Below are positions 11,286 through 53,488 of a DNA stretch of 64,000 nt, in pieces; position 1 is the stretch's first letter, and each line of letters opens with the position of its first letter. Location: the NCBI GenBank assembly GCA_026014745.1, contig JAOZHS010000001.1, forward strand, positions 992,001 through 1,056,000, given 5' to 3'. The position numbers and the translations under genes are program-made. Source of the DNA: Candidatus Bathyarchaeota archaeon. GTDB taxonomy: Archaea > Thermoproteota > Bathyarchaeia > Bathyarchaeales > Bathycorpusculaceae. Under the pieces are notes generated by a model. It was not told the DNA's origin. It did not search any database and saw only the letters and a program-made list of their open reading frames with translations.

Positions 11286-11669
11286 TTAAAGGAGCGTGCT
11301 TAGCAAGCTTTTGATTTTTTCTTGGCTGTTGTGTATGGTTTCGATGGTTTGGGTGCCTTTTAGGGTGAGTTTGTAGATGCGTTTGCGTTCGATCCAGATG
11401 CCTTCGACGAGTTCGTTGCGTTCGAGGCTGTAGAGGAGGCTGTAGACTGTGCCGCTGCTGACGAGGCAGCCGTAGCGGTTGTGGATGTAGCTGATGACGT
11501 CGTAGCCGCTTAGCGGGCCGTTTTGGAGTTCTGACATTATGATGGTGTCCATGAAGCTTTTTATTACGCGTTCATGCATTTTTTTGATTATTCGGGCTTC
11601 GGATTTTTCTCCATTTACGCTTATGGTTAACGCAACCATGTTTTGCACACTCGCTATCTGTTTATTCAT
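11286..11669 (-). CDS. PadR-family transcriptional regulator
   Basis: The 127-residue frame contains a PadR winged helix: 'MDTIIMSELQNGPLSGYDVISYIHNRYG' then 'SSGTVYSLLYSLERNELVEG' and the wing 'RKRIYKLTLKG', with a short C-terminal helix. The start is uncertain. A strong TATA (AAATTATATATAT, about 11675-11690) lies only about 10 bases upstream of ATG 11669, so transcripts would begin near 11656 and Met at about 11639 may be the true start. The target and ligand are unknown; there is no adjacent exporter gene. Confidence 0.8.
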   Translation of the reverse strand: MNKQIASVQNMVALTISVNGEKSEARIIKKMHERVIKSFMDTIIMSELQNGPLSGYDVISYIHNRYGCLVSSGTVYSLLYSLERNELVEGIWIERKRIYKLTLKGTQTIETIHNSQEKIKSLLSTLL

Positions 11670-12013
11670 GTTTAGATATATATAATTTATTCGGAATTAG
11701 AATAAACATGTTATAACAAATCAGAAAAAATATGAACAAATCTCAAATCCCGACAAACCGATAAACCGCCGAAACCGCGGCATAGACAACAAAATAACCT
11801 CTCACCAACAATTCCCAAGTTAACATAAACCCCTCACAAAACAGCCCCTAAACTCCAAAATATTGCACTCTAACCATGCAATAACCCCAAATGCATACTC
11901 TGGAATTTGACGGTAAAATATCCATTTTTTTACCCCAAAAACCGATTTTATTAGTTACCGATATATGTACATGTTAACAAACGTTATCTCTCATCACGCC
12001 GTACCCACCTACG
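11670..12013. other. Intergenic region with divergent promoters
   Basis: About 340 bases without a convincing gene. The left end holds the PadR TATA box. The right end has a TATA-like GATATATG at 11960-11967 with an overlapping palindrome core TGTACA, about 50 bases before the GTG of the CdvA-like gene. Between them the sequence is A- and C-rich, with no clear hairpin or frame. Confidence 0.5.
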
Positions 12014-13606
12014 GTGCCTAAAGTGATCTCATGGAAATATACATTTAAACGGTTAAATGAAGAATACGAAATCGCCAAGAAGAAGAAGCAAGCCCTCGAC
12101 CACCTCTTCGAAACTGGCAAAATTTCACAAACTACCCGCGATTCATTCACCGGTGACATAACCGCGGCAATCGCAGAAATCGAAAAACAACGCCAAGACC
12201 TTGCGGAAAAAATGCAGCTGAAAACCGCCGAACTAGAAGGCCAACTAAAAACTCTAGAAACTCTCCTTGCTAACTATGAAATCCAGCATGTCGTCGGAGA
12301 AATCGATGAGGAAATTTATCAACGAGAAATCACTCTCCTCACAACAAGTCTTGATACGACCAAAAATGAACTCGGCGTCATAAAACTAGCAGTGGAGCAA
12401 ATTTTTCCCTCCGCTCAGCCTATCCCCGCTCCAGTTGCACCTGAACCAATCGCAACCGTTGCTGAAACACTCGTAGCAGCGGAACCTGTTGTAGAACAAG
12501 CGGCAGCCGAAGTTCCAGTTGAAGCCGCGCCTATTCCAGCCCCAATTTTGGAAACTCCACCTGTTGAGTCTTCTCCAATTGTTGAAACCCCTATTGAGTG
12601 TCCAATCGAAACTCCCATTGAAGTAGCCCCAATCGAGGCTCCAGTGGAGCAACCAGTAGTTGAAGCAGCTCCAGCCGAAGTTGCAGCCCCCGTAGAAGTA
12701 GCCGCCCCTGTAGAGGAAGTTGCACCCATAGAAGCCCCAGTCATTGAGCCTCAAGTTGAGGTTGTAGTAGTTGAAGCTGCCCCAATCATTGAGGAAGCTC
12801 CAATTGAAACTGCACCAGTTGAGGTCGCCCCAGTCATTGAAGCGCCTCCAGTAGTTGAAGCAGCACCCGTTATTGAGGAAACTCCCATAGCTGAAGCTCC
12901 CATTGAAGTTGCCCCCGTCGAAGCAGCGGTTGTTGAAGTACCCATCGAGGAAGCAATCGCAGTTGAAGCTCCAGTCATCGAAGAGACCCCTGTAGCAGTG
13001 GAAGAAGCCCCAATTGCTCCAGCAGAAACCGAAGTCCCCGTTGCTGAACCAGCAGTAGAAATTTCACTAGAAGAGCCAGCAGTTATCGCTGAACCAGTCG
13101 TTGAGGAACCAACCGAACCAACCTTAACAATCGAAGCTCCAATCGAAGAACCCTCAGTTGAAGTCCCAATTGAAGAAGCAACTGTTGAAGTTCCTGTTGA
13201 GGATGTTGCGCCAATCGAGGAAGCCCCAGTTGAAATTCCAGTTGTTGAAGAAGTTCCAGTAGTTGAAGCTGCCCCAATCATTGAAGAAGCTCCAGTAATT
13301 GAAGCTCCCGCAATCGAGGAAGTTCAGGTTGAAGAATTCGTTCCAGTTGAGGAAACTGCAGAAATCATCGAAGAACCCTCAGTTGAAGTTCCCCTTCAAG
13401 CCTTCGAAGTAACAGAGCATGCCCCAGTAGAGACCACACTCGAACAACTTATCCAACCCATGATGGACACAGTTACTGTAGAGGAGTCTCAAACTCAAGC
13501 CCACCCTTTAGAAGCGCCTACGCAGGCGCATCTGGAAACAGAACAGGCCGCTCAAGACGAAAACACCGACACAACAGAAACCGACGACTCAGATAGTCGC
13601 CAATAA
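12014..13606 (+). CDS. CdvA-like coiled-coil protein with long Pro/Glu/Val/Ala-rich tail
   Basis: Residues 1-135 form a charged coiled coil. A 79-residue stretch starting near residue 28 aligns without gaps to the coiled coil of the CdvA at 50573-51322; near its end 'ANYEIQHVVGEIDEE' matches 'ANLEIEHEIGKVDEE'. The CdvA PRC-barrel is absent. Residues from about 137 to 500 are a low-complexity, strongly acidic repeat of short units such as 'APIEEAPVEV', likely disordered, followed by a Thr/Asp/Glu-rich end. The start is GTG 12014 without a clear ribosome site. I infer a CdvA paralogue that could bind CdvA or ESCRT-III polymers, with the tail as a spacer or binding region. The repeat DNA creates long open frames on the opposite strand, which are artefacts. 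Confidence 0.8.
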   Translation: MPKVISWKYTFKRLNEEYEIAKKKKQALDHLFETGKISQTTRDSFTGDITAAIAEIEKQRQDLAEKMQLKTAELEGQLKTLETLLANYEIQHVVGEIDEEIYQREITLLTTSLDTTKNELGVIKLAVEQIFPSAQPIPAPVAPEPIATVAETLVAAEPVVEQAAAEVPVEAAPIPAPILETPPVESSPIVETPIECPIETPIEVAPIEAPVEQPVVEAAPAEVAAPVEVAAPVEEVAPIEAPVIEPQVEVVVVEAAPIIEEAPIETAPVEVAPVIEAPPVVEAAPVIEETPIAEAPIEVAPVEAAVVEVPIEEAIAVEAPVIEETPVAVEEAPIAPAETEVPVAEPAVEISLEEPAVIAEPVVEEPTEPTLTIEAPIEEPSVEVPIEEATVEVPVEDVAPIEEAPVEIPVVEEVPVVEAAPIIEEAPVIEAPAIEEVQVEEFVPVEETAEIIEEPSVEVPLQAFEVTEHAPVETTLEQLIQPMMDTVTVEESQTQAHPLEAPTQAHLETEQAAQDENTDTTETDDSDSRQ

Positions 13607-13674: not shown

Positions 13675-14091
13675 TTATTGTTGCCTTAAGCCATATTTTG
13701 CTTTGAGGCAATCATTGCAAAAGTTTTGCCTGTACTTTCTTATCCGTCGCGGCTGAAACATTTTTTTGCATCCGCTACACCTGATAAGTTTATTTTGGTT
13801 GGGATCAATGAGTTTTAGCCTTCGCTCTATCTCCGATCTGACGTCAGCATCTCTTTCGCTTTTTAATGCGTCATTTAGTAGTTCTATAGCGAAATCTACG
13901 CTTTTATCTCCAAAAAGCTCCTCAAACACATTTCCGATTTTCTTTTTCCCTAAGCATACCTTTACGGGTAGCATGCAAACAAAATTTGTAGGATAACTTT
14001 CGGATCGGCTTAAATCAAGAATTGCAAAGCGGTATGTCCGTGATGAGTTGTTGTCCGTTTCTTGTTTGAAAACTTGCAGCTTACACTCCAT
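13675..14091 (-). CDS. Hypothetical protein with C-terminal zinc ribbon
   Basis: The 138-residue protein ends in a C-x2-C-x16-C-x2-C motif (Cys-Ser-Gly-Cys, then Cys-Asn-Asp-Cys), a likely treble-clef or zinc-ribbon fold with basic residues between, suited to nucleic-acid binding. The N-terminal 90 residues show mixed beta/alpha character and no family I recognise. It is a single gene on the minus strand, with no operon partners. Confidence 0.65.
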   Translation of the reverse strand: MECKLQVFKQETDNNSSRTYRFAILDLSRSESYPTNFVCMLPVKVCLGKKKIGNVFEELFGDKSVDFAIELLNDALKSERDADVRSEIERRLKLIDPNQNKLIRCSGCKKMFQPRRIRKYRQNFCNDCLKAKYGLRQQ

Positions 14092-49673: not shown

Positions 49674-49898
49674 TTGTTACACCTTTTGATACTGTGTTGC
49701 TTAGCGATTCTTTTTAGTCTAACTAACATGTTTATGTATAAAATCACCATATATGAATCCAACTTTTAGTCTAAAAGTTAAAGCAAAACGCCAAATCCCC
49801 TGCAACGTATAGCTGTACATATATACGTCCATATTTCGGTCATATTAACAATGTATAACTCTGTTTTCGGCATTCACTGCGTGATAGAGGTAATAATA

Positions 49899-50558
49899 AT
49901 GTCTGAAAGATTCGCTAAAAAGTGGGAAAGTAAACGGGAAGATGAGCCCTTCGCAAACCGCATTAAAGACGCAGTGAAGCCGCCAGGACCCCTAAAACCA
50001 AGACTGGACTTCGCCGTCAGACGTATCGAACTTCAAGTCCAAAAATTAGATCAAGCAACCGACAGATTTAGCCAAAGAGACAAAGCAATCTTCGCACGCA
50101 TCGTTGACGCCTACACAAAACACGACAGTGCACGCGCAAACGTCTTCGCAAACGAACTAGCTGAAGTTAGAAAAATGTCCAAATTAATCATGAACGCTAA
50201 ACTTGCTCTCGAGCAAATCACATTACGGTTACGAACCGTTTCAGAATTAGGCGACGTAGTCAGCACACTCGGCCCCGCCGTCGGTGTTCTACGTTCAGTA
50301 CGTGCAGGCTTGACAAGTGTTTTCCCAGAAGCAGAAAATGAACTGGGAGAAATCGGCAACATGCTCAGCGGAATAATGATTGAAGCAGGCCAAGGCAGCG
50401 GCATGACACTCAACTTCGACACAGTTAACGAAGATGCATCAAAGATCCTAACCGAAGCAGCAACAGTCGCAGAGCAAAAAATCAAGGACAAATTCCCAGA
50501 CCTACCCGCAGGAATGCCATCTACTCCAGCTTCACAAGCAGAGAGAACAACATTCTAA
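49899..50558 (+). CDS. cdvB1: ESCRT-III-like CdvB paralogue without winged helix
   Basis: From ATG 49899 (AGAGG at 49886-49890) the 219-residue protein has a charged N-terminal helix and a Snf7/ESCRT-III helical core: 'AVRRIELQVQKLDQATDRF', 'RDKAIFARIVDAYTKHDSARANVFANELAEVRKM' and acidic helices to about residue 165. The C-terminus is short and lacks the winged helix seen in the CdvB two genes downstream. Paralogues of this kind act with CdvB in membrane constriction during division. The upstream frame to 49851 is unlikely to be translated. First gene of the Cdv cluster. Confidence 0.88.
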   Translation: MSERFAKKWESKREDEPFANRIKDAVKPPGPLKPRLDFAVRRIELQVQKLDQATDRFSQRDKAIFARIVDAYTKHDSARANVFANELAEVRKMSKLIMNAKLALEQITLRLRTVSELGDVVSTLGPAVGVLRSVRAGLTSVFPEAENELGEIGNMLSGIMIEAGQGSGMTLNFDTVNEDASKILTEAATVAEQKIKDKFPDLPAGMPSTPASQAERTTF

Positions 50559-50572
50559 AAGGAGCCTGAAAA

Positions 50573-51322
50573 ATGTCCAACACCAATCTTTTTCTTTCTA
50601 TTGGCAAACCCGTTAAGAACGAGTATGGCCGAGTAATAGGCAAAGTCGCATCATTCGCATTAACACCCAGCGGAAAATTTGACGCTGTCTTCATCGAGTT
50701 CGGTGACGGTCAATTTTCCAAGCAGCCCATGGAAAGCCTACGATTCAATGGCGCTGACATTACATTCATCACAAAAATCAAAAACACCGCTAACATGCTT
50801 TGTGACCAAATTCCCTTGATATGGCGCAAAGATGAAGCCCTAAAGGACCTTGCTGAAAAGAAGAAAATCACCCCTGAAGTCTACCAGGATCTTCACAGCA
50901 GCTTCAGCAACGTCTTGACCCAACTTAAAAAAGACGCACAAATCATAATCGACGACGCCGCCATCGAAATCGAACGATGCCAAGAAGAAATATCCTCTCT
51001 GAGCTACGCCGTCGCAAACCTAGAAATTGAACATGAAATCGGCAAGGTTGACGAAGAAAACTACAAAGCCGCATTTGCCCTACTACAAGAGACACTTCGA
51101 CGTGCCAGTAGCGAGAAAGCTGACTATGAAGCAACCAAGAGCAAAGTCTCCAATGTACTGTTAGGCGACTCACTACAGTTACCACCAAAACCCATCGCTT
51201 CCCCAATCGCTTCTCCAATACCCAACAAAGTCTACGCTGAAACAGTCTCAAACGGCGCAACTAAACTTCCTGAACCCCCAGTTGTTGTTTACGTGAAAGA
51301 AACTGGGAGAACTGGCATCTAA
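50573..51322 (+). CDS. cdvA: Cell division protein CdvA
   Basis: The 249-residue protein has an N-terminal PRC-barrel-like domain (residues 5-75, 'IGKPVKNEYGRVIGKVASFALTP') and a central coiled coil (80-200), then a Pro-rich C-terminus where CdvA proteins bind the CdvB winged helix. CdvA binds membrane and DNA and recruits CdvB to mid-cell. It starts 14 bases after the first CdvB paralogue with AAGGAG as ribosome site. The coiled coil is shared with the protein at 12014-13606. Confidence 0.93.
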   Translation: MSNTNLFLSIGKPVKNEYGRVIGKVASFALTPSGKFDAVFIEFGDGQFSKQPMESLRFNGADITFITKIKNTANMLCDQIPLIWRKDEALKDLAEKKKITPEVYQDLHSSFSNVLTQLKKDAQIIIDDAAIEIERCQEEISSLSYAVANLEIEHEIGKVDEENYKAAFALLQETLRRASSEKADYEATKSKVSNVLLGDSLQLPPKPIASPIASPIPNKVYAETVSNGATKLPEPPVVVYVKETGRTGI

Positions 51323-51367
51323 CCCGGTTCCAATCAATGGATGGGGTATGGGAGGGACTGAGCAATC

Positions 51368-52276
51368 GTGAGTTTTACTAACCGTAACTCTCCCCCTATC
51401 CGTGAAGTTGCTACAAAGTCTATTTATACCCTAAAAGTTCAACAAAGCAAACTTGAACAGGCCAGTTTCCGCCTCAAAGAACGCGACCGAATCCTGTTCG
51501 AAACCTGCATGGGCGCACTCAAAAAGAACAACAAAGAAAGAGCCGCCATATGCGCAACTGAAATTGCGGAAGTCCGCAAATTAGTCAAATTCCTCTACAA
51601 CGTTCAATTAGCTATTGAACGTGTTATTATGCGTCTTGAAACAATCAAGGAACTAGGCGACATCGTTTCGGATCTTAAGCCTGCGTTGAAGTTGCTTCAA
51701 GGCGTTTCTCAAGAGCTTTTCCAAGTTTTACCTGACGTTAGCACTGAACTTAACAATGTTAACTCAGCCATCCAAGATACGCTCCAACAAACTAAACTTA
51801 CCACTGATGAGAACATCGTTGGCGTGGGCAGAAAAACAGAAGCCGGCGAAGAAGTCCTCAAAGAAGTCCACTGCTTTATGGAGCAGAAACTCAGTGAAAC
51901 TTTGCCTGAACCACCTGTGTCGGCGCCTGTTAAGCAGAAAGCCCCTGTTGCTCCTGTTCGGGAGATGGTGGCGTTGGCTGCGAGTACCTCTCAGGTGTTT
52001 GGTACCAAAACCACTGAGGAGGAATCAGGGTTTGACCCCGAGAAGGCCCTGTTCTCCTATAAGAAGTCTGAAATTAAAGAGTTCCAGCTAAAAGTGCAGA
52101 AACCTAAACCCAACCTTGAAGAAGTCCTCTTAGATTATGTGCGAAAGATGAATGGCGAAATCGATTTAGGCAGATGCAGTAGTGAATTGCAGACATCAAA
52201 CGAAGAAATTGAACGTGCCCTCGAAGGTTTGGGGGCCAAAGGTAAAATCAAGATAGAGTTACGGTCGCCTGAATAG
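51368..52276 (+). CDS. cdvB: ESCRT-III-like division protein CdvB with winged helix
   Basis: The 302-residue protein has an ESCRT-III core (residues 10-165, 'RDRILFETCMGALKKNNKERAAICATEIAEVRKL'), a Pro/Ala-rich linker where CdvC MIT-binding motifs lie in this family, and a C-terminal winged helix from about residue 245 ('LEEVLLDYVRKMNGEIDLGRCSSEL', then 'EIERALEGLGAKGKIKIEL'). The winged helix binds CdvA in known systems. It starts at GTG 51368 with GGAGG about 10 bases upstream. Confidence 0.93.
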   Translation: MSFTNRNSPPIREVATKSIYTLKVQQSKLEQASFRLKERDRILFETCMGALKKNNKERAAICATEIAEVRKLVKFLYNVQLAIERVIMRLETIKELGDIVSDLKPALKLLQGVSQELFQVLPDVSTELNNVNSAIQDTLQQTKLTTDENIVGVGRKTEAGEEVLKEVHCFMEQKLSETLPEPPVSAPVKQKAPVAPVREMVALAASTSQVFGTKTTEEESGFDPEKALFSYKKSEIKEFQLKVQKPKPNLEEVLLDYVRKMNGEIDLGRCSSELQTSNEEIERALEGLGAKGKIKIELRSPE

Positions 52277-52297
52277 GCATAAAGGAGAAAACATGAC

Positions 52298-53488
52298 GTG
52301 AGCGCTTCAAACGAACTTGAAAAAGCAGCAACAGCCTACGCCCTTGACGCGGTACGGCTTGATAAGCAGGGACAGAAAGGCAGAGCAATAACCCTCTACC
52401 AAAAAGCTATAGAGAGCCTTCTGCAGCTCGTCCAACTTTACCCCGAATATGGTTTAAACAAAGTCTACGTTCAACGCGCAATCGCGTATCAGGAACGTAT
52501 CAAAGCCCTTCAAGGCGCAGTTTCCTCCCAAGAGATGAATCAGGCAGCTAACGAAGACAGCGATGGCGGCAATGGCGGCGCAACCATGGACGGCAGCAAC
52601 GGCGGCGGCTTAGCAAAACCCAACGAGGAACTCGTAGTCACCGAGAAACCCAAAGTGAGCTGGGCAGAAGTCGTCGGGTTAGATGTTGCCAAAAAAGCCG
52701 TAAAAGAAGCCATCGTTTACCCTGTGCAGCGTCCAGATTTGTTTCCGCTGGGTTGGCCACGTGGCATTTTGCTGTTCGGTCCTCCGGGCTGTGGAAAAAC
52801 TCTTTTGGCAGCGGCTGTTGCAACTGAAATCGACGCCAGCTTCTACTCTATTGATGCAGCTTCGATTATGTCGAAGTGGCTTGGTGAGGCAGAGCAGAAT
52901 GTTGCTAAGCTCTTTGGGTCGGCACGTAAAAACGCTACAGACGGCAAACCTTCAATCGTGTTCGTTGATGAACTTGACTCATTGATGGGTACTCACAGTA
53001 ACGAGGTCGGCGGCGAAATCCGCGTTAAGAACCAGTTCCTCAAGGAAATGGACGGTATCGTAGACAAAGGAAAAGCACTCCACGTCTACGTCATCGGCGC
53101 TACCAATAAGCCTTGGGATCTTGACTGGGCTTTCATTCGACGGTTCCAGAAACGTATCCTTGTGCCCCTCGCTGACCACGGGACACGGCTTAACATGCTT
53201 AAGCATTATTCCAGTAACCTGCAGATTAGTTCCGATGTTGACTTGCATGAACTTGCACGCCTCTCAGAAGGATTCAGCGGCAGCGACATTCGCGACGTTT
53301 GCCAATCTGCCCAGCTGAGCCTTATCGGCGAGTTCTTTGAGTCGGGCAAGGCTATGGACAAGGCAGCGACGCCTCGGCCTTTGACGATGGCTGACTTCCG
53401 CCAAATCCTTGAAGAACGCAAGCCTTCGGTTTCGCTGGATATGCTCTCGATGTATAACCGCTGGTTTGAGGCATTCAAGGCACTATAG
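52298..53488 (+). CDS. cdvC: Vps4-like AAA ATPase CdvC
   Basis: The 396-residue protein has an N-terminal MIT domain (residues 3-75), a Gly/Asn-rich linker, and an AAA ATPase with Walker A 'GPPGCGKT', Walker B 'IVFVDELDSL', sensor 'VIGATN' and Arg finger region 'FIRRFQKR', ending with the Vps4-type C-terminal helix. It remodels and disassembles CdvB polymers. It starts at GTG 52298. The ribosome site AAGGAG (52282-52287) also serves an ATG at 52293 that opens a two-codon frame whose TGA overlaps the GTG. Confidence 0.94.
   Translation: MSASNELEKAATAYALDAVRLDKQGQKGRAITLYQKAIESLLQLVQLYPEYGLNKVYVQRAIAYQERIKALQGAVSSQEMNQAANEDSDGGNGGATMDGSNGGGLAKPNEELVVTEKPKVSWAEVVGLDVAKKAVKEAIVYPVQRPDLFPLGWPRGILLFGPPGCGKTLLAAAVATEIDASFYSIDAASIMSKWLGEAEQNVAKLFGSARKNATDGKPSIVFVDELDSLMGTHSNEVGGEIRVKNQFLKEMDGIVDKGKALHVYVIGATNKPWDLDWAFIRRFQKRILVPLADHGTRLNMLKHYSSNLQISSDVDLHELARLSEGFSGSDIRDVCQSAQLSLIGEFFESGKAMDKAATPRPLTMADFRQILEERKPSVSLDMLSMYNRWFEAFKAL

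Follow-up and report, generated by a model that had tools for sequence, protein, structure and literature searches.

A PRC-less relative of CdvA in Bathyarchaeia that keeps the residues of the end-to-end filament contact

Introduction

In Sulfolobus, CdvA initiates the ESCRT-type division ring, and purified CdvA filaments do not bind membrane (PMC12818579). In S. islandicus CdvA, the PRC barrel makes the cross-strand contacts that link the two strands of the filament, and introducing aspartate at A90, L94, I100, I149, M153 and I156 abolishes filaments while leaving the fold unchanged (PMC12818579). CdvA without its PRC barrel is cited in the same paper as failing to polymerise.

Several CdvA-like proteins other than CdvA have been mentioned. 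A single sentence of a 2024 survey of ESCRT systems mentions additional CdvA-like proteins of Bathyarchaea that have a tail rich in Glu and are encoded outside the cdv locus (PMC11188069). KPV61682.1, from that survey, is similar to the protein described here in being bathyarchaeal, in having a CdvA-like domain fused to an unstructured Glu-rich part and in lying outside the cdv locus; the survey gives no anatomy for it, and we take the two to be one family from its description only. The Thermoproteales families arCOG03733 and arCOG03734 (PMC11188069) are likewise extra CdvA-like coil proteins beside CdvA, although arCOG03733 differs, by description, in its N-terminal Zn ribbon and long coil. 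OLD03897.1 also joins a CdvA-like N-terminal coil to another C-terminal part, but there the second part is a folded domain, a Cren7-like Zn ribbon (PMC5906684), whereas the tail of the present protein is predicted to be disordered.

Here we analyse one such gene in a 64,000-nucleotide stretch of bathyarchaeal DNA (the window), which also contains a cdv operon (Table 1). The basic finding is already known, in the one sentence of the survey, and the word 'undescribed', which a sequence-only reading of the locus had used, was wrong. Our additions are the conservation of the filament interface, the C-terminal tail motifs, the pairing with a PadR-like gene and a wider PRC-less group, none of which we found in the literature searched. 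Like CdvA (S. islandicus structures 9s9g and 9s9h, and the copy in the window), the paralogue has a predicted three-helix coil and the interface residues, and it aligns with CdvA without a gap. Unlike CdvA, it lacks a PRC barrel and a recognisable E3B peptide and has a long acidic tail, and its gene is unlinked to the cdv genes.

Table 1 Features of the paralogue and the cdv operon in the window
Feature	Position	Strand	Basis or remarks
Divergent PadR-like regulator	11286..11669	-	PF03551, 38.8 bits; adjoins the gene in 17 neighbourhoods
Upstream block ATGTTAACAAACGTTAT	11971..11987	+	Conserved in most genus orthologues; single copy in the window
PRC-less CdvA-like gene	12023..13606	+	527 aa; GTG start; PF18822 match; ORF listing opens at 12014
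CdvA-like three-helix coiled-coil domain (predicted)	12023..12412	+	With interface residues A27, L31, I37, A86, I90 and V93 (numbered from 12014)
Acidic Pro/Glu/Val/Ala spacer, predicted disordered	12413..13390	+	Composition; AF2 pLDDT <50 over nearly all; length varies between orthologues
Tail motif PLQAFEVTEHAPVETTLEQLIQP	13391..13459	+	Conserved; core pattern in 15/20 genus and near-genus tails
Tail motif AHPLEAPTQA	13499..13528	+	Pattern in 19/20 tails
cdv operon	49851..53488	+	Two ESCRT-III-like genes, CdvA, Vps4-type ATPase; Snf7, AAA, MIT and Vps4_C matches
CdvA of the cdv operon	50573..51322	+	PRC-like N terminus, coil, LPEPPVVVYVK end; PF18822 32.2 bits; NF041007 best match

Results

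Gene and start codon

The open reading frame at 12014-13606 (+) was confirmed, and the gene is real and kept among orthologues. The sequence-only reading had placed the start at 12014. Almost every orthologue has an ATG, GTG or TTG start codon three residues ahead of an invariant tryptophan, and comparison of the orthologues showed a conserved GGTG a few bases 5′ of this codon. Because the start position is conserved and GTG 12014 sits inside the upstream GGTG, the true start is GTG 12023. Just 3′ of the gene, positions 13675-14091 (-) encode a 138-residue protein with C-terminal CxxC pairs and no Pfam match.

CdvA identity of the coil

By sequence comparison and structure prediction, the first ~130 residues form a genuine CdvA coiled-coil domain. 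The gapless alignment of 79 residues to the CdvA of the window, on which the sequence-only reading was built, proved to be longer, extending over 112 residues at 24% identity (E 1e-9), and CdvA was the sole second match of the coil in the whole genome (E 1.7e-7). PF18822 scored 39.4-42.7 bits on the paralogue, above the Pfam gathering cut-off of 30, and it matched 45/45 orthologues at E <= 0.001; the similarity is thus present throughout the orthologues, contrary to the absence that the sequence-only reading had named as a refutation. Profile-profile alignment with CdvA by hhalign gave a probability of 98.8% (E 1e-16, 126 columns). A profile search, which that reading had proposed as a check, singled out CdvA: run against all chains of the PDB, the family profile matched CdvA at E 7.8e-14 and 5e-7, and the next chain, from among other coiled coils, at 0.057. 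The match to 9s9g was gapless over 125 residues (CdvA 69-193, E about 8e-14) and placed the invariant tryptophan on W70. AlphaFold2, with nine sequences, predicted a coil of three helices (pLDDT 89). When this predicted structure was searched with Foldseek, the best nine PDB matches were all CdvA, with TM-scores of 0.75-0.78 by query length, and the tenth match had an E of 0.22. The NCBIfam equivalog NF041007 (cut-off 350 bits) gave 29.5 bits; as the operon CdvA of the window itself reaches only 44, this cut-off is narrow and does not decide the matter.

The likeness to the CdvA coil is therefore stronger than had been claimed. False matches are frequent with coiled coils and simple repeats, but a chance likeness between coiled coils in an ordinary low-complexity protein is hardly credible here, because the profile, PDB and fold searches pick CdvA over all other coiled coils; we rejected a generic coiled coil on these grounds.

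Absence of the PRC barrel and the E3B peptide

The PRC barrel is absent: the protein starts three residues before the tryptophan that aligns with CdvA W70, that is, past the barrel. The sequence-only reading was right in describing a coil that lacks the PRC barrel and continues into a long acidic tail, which is probably disordered (pLDDT <50 over nearly all of it). Its description of the barrel as membrane-binding is unsupported; what the barrel makes is the cross-strand contacts of the CdvA filament (PMC12818579). It had also called the barrel 'gone'; absence is correct, but loss may be the wrong history, since support is good for a group of PRC-less coils that extends into other lineages (see below).

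We also searched the tails for an E3B (CdvB-binding) peptide, and the best windows did not exceed those of shuffled tails. A hidden E3B-like peptide in the tail was rejected because its scores fall within the shuffled-tail range. In the alignment, the operon CdvA of the same order ends in LPEPPVVVYVK.

Residues of the end-to-end interface

The six CdvA positions that are essential for filaments, A90, L94, I100, I149, M153 and I156, align with A27, L31, I37, A86, I90 and V93 of the paralogue (numbered from 12014). The residue is hydrophobic at 6/6 of these positions in the paralogue and in 99.6% of cases across 45 orthologues. Mean entropy in these orthologues was 0.46 at the six interface columns versus 1.33 at 39 further columns with hydrophobic residues in CdvA, and permutation with random six-column sets gave p values of 0.0001 for hydrophobicity and 0.0005 for entropy. 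Most of the interface residues are equal to those of CdvA, in which positions 90, 94 and 100 are mostly the same A, L and I. Both halves of the CdvA end-to-end filament contact are, at the residue level, kept, and the paralogue would on this residue evidence be able to form CdvA-type end-to-end contacts. At some of these columns, conservation may serve folding rather than contact.

Position 156 is Glu in 25 of 29 CdvAs of the same order and Val or Ala in the paralogue, and in most tail-less relatives from other lineages position 90 is Thr and position 156 is Ser. Contacts, whether mixed or homotypic, may therefore differ. At position 152, CdvAs of the order carry Glu and most other TACK CdvAs carry Lys; the paralogue also has Glu152.

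The acidic tail

The sequence-only reading correctly described an acidic tail rich in Pro, Glu, Val and Ala, but its length of ~370 residues was an underestimate: by composition count the tail has ~397 residues, with 23% E, 17% V, 16% P, 16% A, 0.3% K+R and a net charge of about -96. Although that reading called it a repeat, it is a diverged PEVA-rich sequence with no clean tandem repeats in the DNA. Among complete genes of the order, tail length ranges from 8 to 475 residues. Long Pro/Glu/Val/Ala tails occur in the genus of the window and in some other lineages, and short Glu-rich tails elsewhere.

Near their ends, tails of the genus carry the pattern PLQ[AV]FEVTE...ETTLEKVME, the core of which was found in 15 of 20 tails (shuffled expectation, 0.002), and AHPLEAPxQA, found in 19 of 20 genus and near-genus tails (shuffled expectation, 0.03). 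In the alignment, both motifs were restricted to the genus and one near genus. They have the look of binding motifs. Of the proposal that the tail is a disordered brush or spacer, the predicted disorder holds up, but a bare brush does not, since the tails of the genus end in these conserved motifs.

Occurrence and ancestry

In a class-wide sample, the gene was present in 50/57 genomes of its own order, and 0/94 genomes of other orders had a match at its level. Genomes with the paralogue mostly have CdvA as well, and several genus-mates have CdvA without the paralogue. Other lineages of the phylum have a second group of PRC-less coils, which are 142-156 residues long and have no long tail (for example, the nearly tail-less CdvA-like proteins at L114-L120 and L140, from other families), and the genomes checked with such coils also carry a PRC-bearing CdvA. 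Other architectures were seen as well: a PRC-less CdvA-like coil with a C-terminal Cys-rich, Zn-ribbon-like part (L157:409-1158 and L160:535-1191) or with an N-terminal Zn ribbon (L158:616-1527), in genomes that have several CdvA-like genes each.

A tree of 124 coils separated the 62 PRC-less rows, without exception, from the 62 PRC-bearing ones (support 100/95; 998/1000 bootstraps). It is unrooted, is based on few columns (127) and excludes five long-branched rows whose architecture was odd or whose class was doubtful. A recent duplication of CdvA within the order was disfavoured, though only marginally (AU test, p 0.044). The gene product is best explained, on sequence grounds, as belonging to a branch of the CdvA coiled-coil family that has no PRC barrel.

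Genomic setting

The paralogue lies outside the cdv locus, at 12.0-13.6 kb in the window versus 49.9-53.5 kb, a distance of ~37 kb. Within the genus, a close orthologue of the divergent PadR-like gene (E < 1e-40) was present in 7/10 tested genomes with the paralogue and in 0/8 without it (Fisher p 0.004, uncorrected for relatedness). In another family, one genome (G058) carries the PadR gene without the paralogue. Because the two genes are divergent neighbours that tend to be present or absent together in the genus, the PadR-like protein is the likely regulator of the paralogue.

The conserved block ATGTTAACAAACGTTAT upstream of the gene is probably a promoter or operator. Its assignment as the PadR operator is doubtful, as genome G004 retains the block without a close PadR. 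We looked for the block at the cdv operon and did not find it, and no promoter element common to the paralogue and the cdv operon emerged.

We rejected a link to arcadin, since almost all genomes of the order have arcadin-1, including ones that lack the paralogue, and in the genome of the window it lies ~650 kb away. In one other family, a coil-only gene (L142:7746-8198) is arranged tail to tail with an Arcadin_1 gene (PF18653; L142:8195-8527) and is divergent from a gene for a 337-residue protein (P0003) with no Pfam match. In about a dozen neighbourhoods, all outside the genus of the window, a histone-deacetylase-like gene (PF00850) lies directly 3′ of the gene in the same direction (for example, L033:9256-10326 and L032:10144-11226).

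Discussion

The model that we tentatively favour, at somewhat less than an even chance for the whole of it, is one of end-to-end chaining, alone or with CdvA, by a protein that bears a long charged tether and is controlled by a PadR regulator. The coil is predicted to fold like that of CdvA, and subunits would add head to tail, to one another or to CdvA protofilaments. Because the PRC barrel is missing, no cross-strand pairing would be expected, and the products would be single strands or interrupted CdvA double filaments. Each subunit would project a strongly negative, disordered tether of ~400 residues, spacing the polymer from other surfaces, and in the genus of the window this tether may present its conserved C-terminal motifs to a partner. 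ESCRT-III recruitment in the manner of CdvA is not expected because the tail has no recognisable CdvB-binding peptide. Several observations speak against this model: the gene lies apart from the cdv genes, at whose operon its upstream block was not found, some CdvA-bearing genus-mates lack the paralogue, and the C-terminal motifs are confined to the genus and its near genus.

In a rival reading, the protein would use the kept interface to build a filament or scaffold of its own under PadR control, with a job outside division such as cell shape or envelope upkeep. The gene has its own conserved upstream region away from the cdv operon, it comes and goes with the divergent PadR gene in the genus, it is missing where genus-mates retain CdvA, and its position 156 is unlike that of CdvA in the same order. 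However, genomes with the paralogue mostly have CdvA too, most interface residues match those of CdvA, and we found no independent functional link; we regard such a scaffold as possible but somewhat unlikely.

An inhibitor or length controller of CdvA, in which the coil would cap protofilament ends and the bulky negative tail would block growth or strand pairing, seems improbable. It would account for a kept interface in a protein that lacks the barrel needed for double strands and has a long, acidic tail. Both halves of the interface are retained, though, when a pure cap requires just one, and relatives with a short tail or none exist.

More broadly, in an unlikely and speculative reading, several TACK lineages would have, besides CdvA, an old second polymer of the CdvA type. 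Its PRC-less protofilaments would co-assemble with CdvA or cap it and would carry, in Bathyarchaeia, a long acidic tether with a partner-binding motif at its end. The authors of the CdvA structure expect CdvA to have partners still to be identified (PMC12818579), and the PRC-less proteins may possibly be one of them. A PRC-less relative with a kept end-to-end contact is a concrete candidate for a CdvA partner or regulator, and it offers six named residues and named tail motifs for testing.
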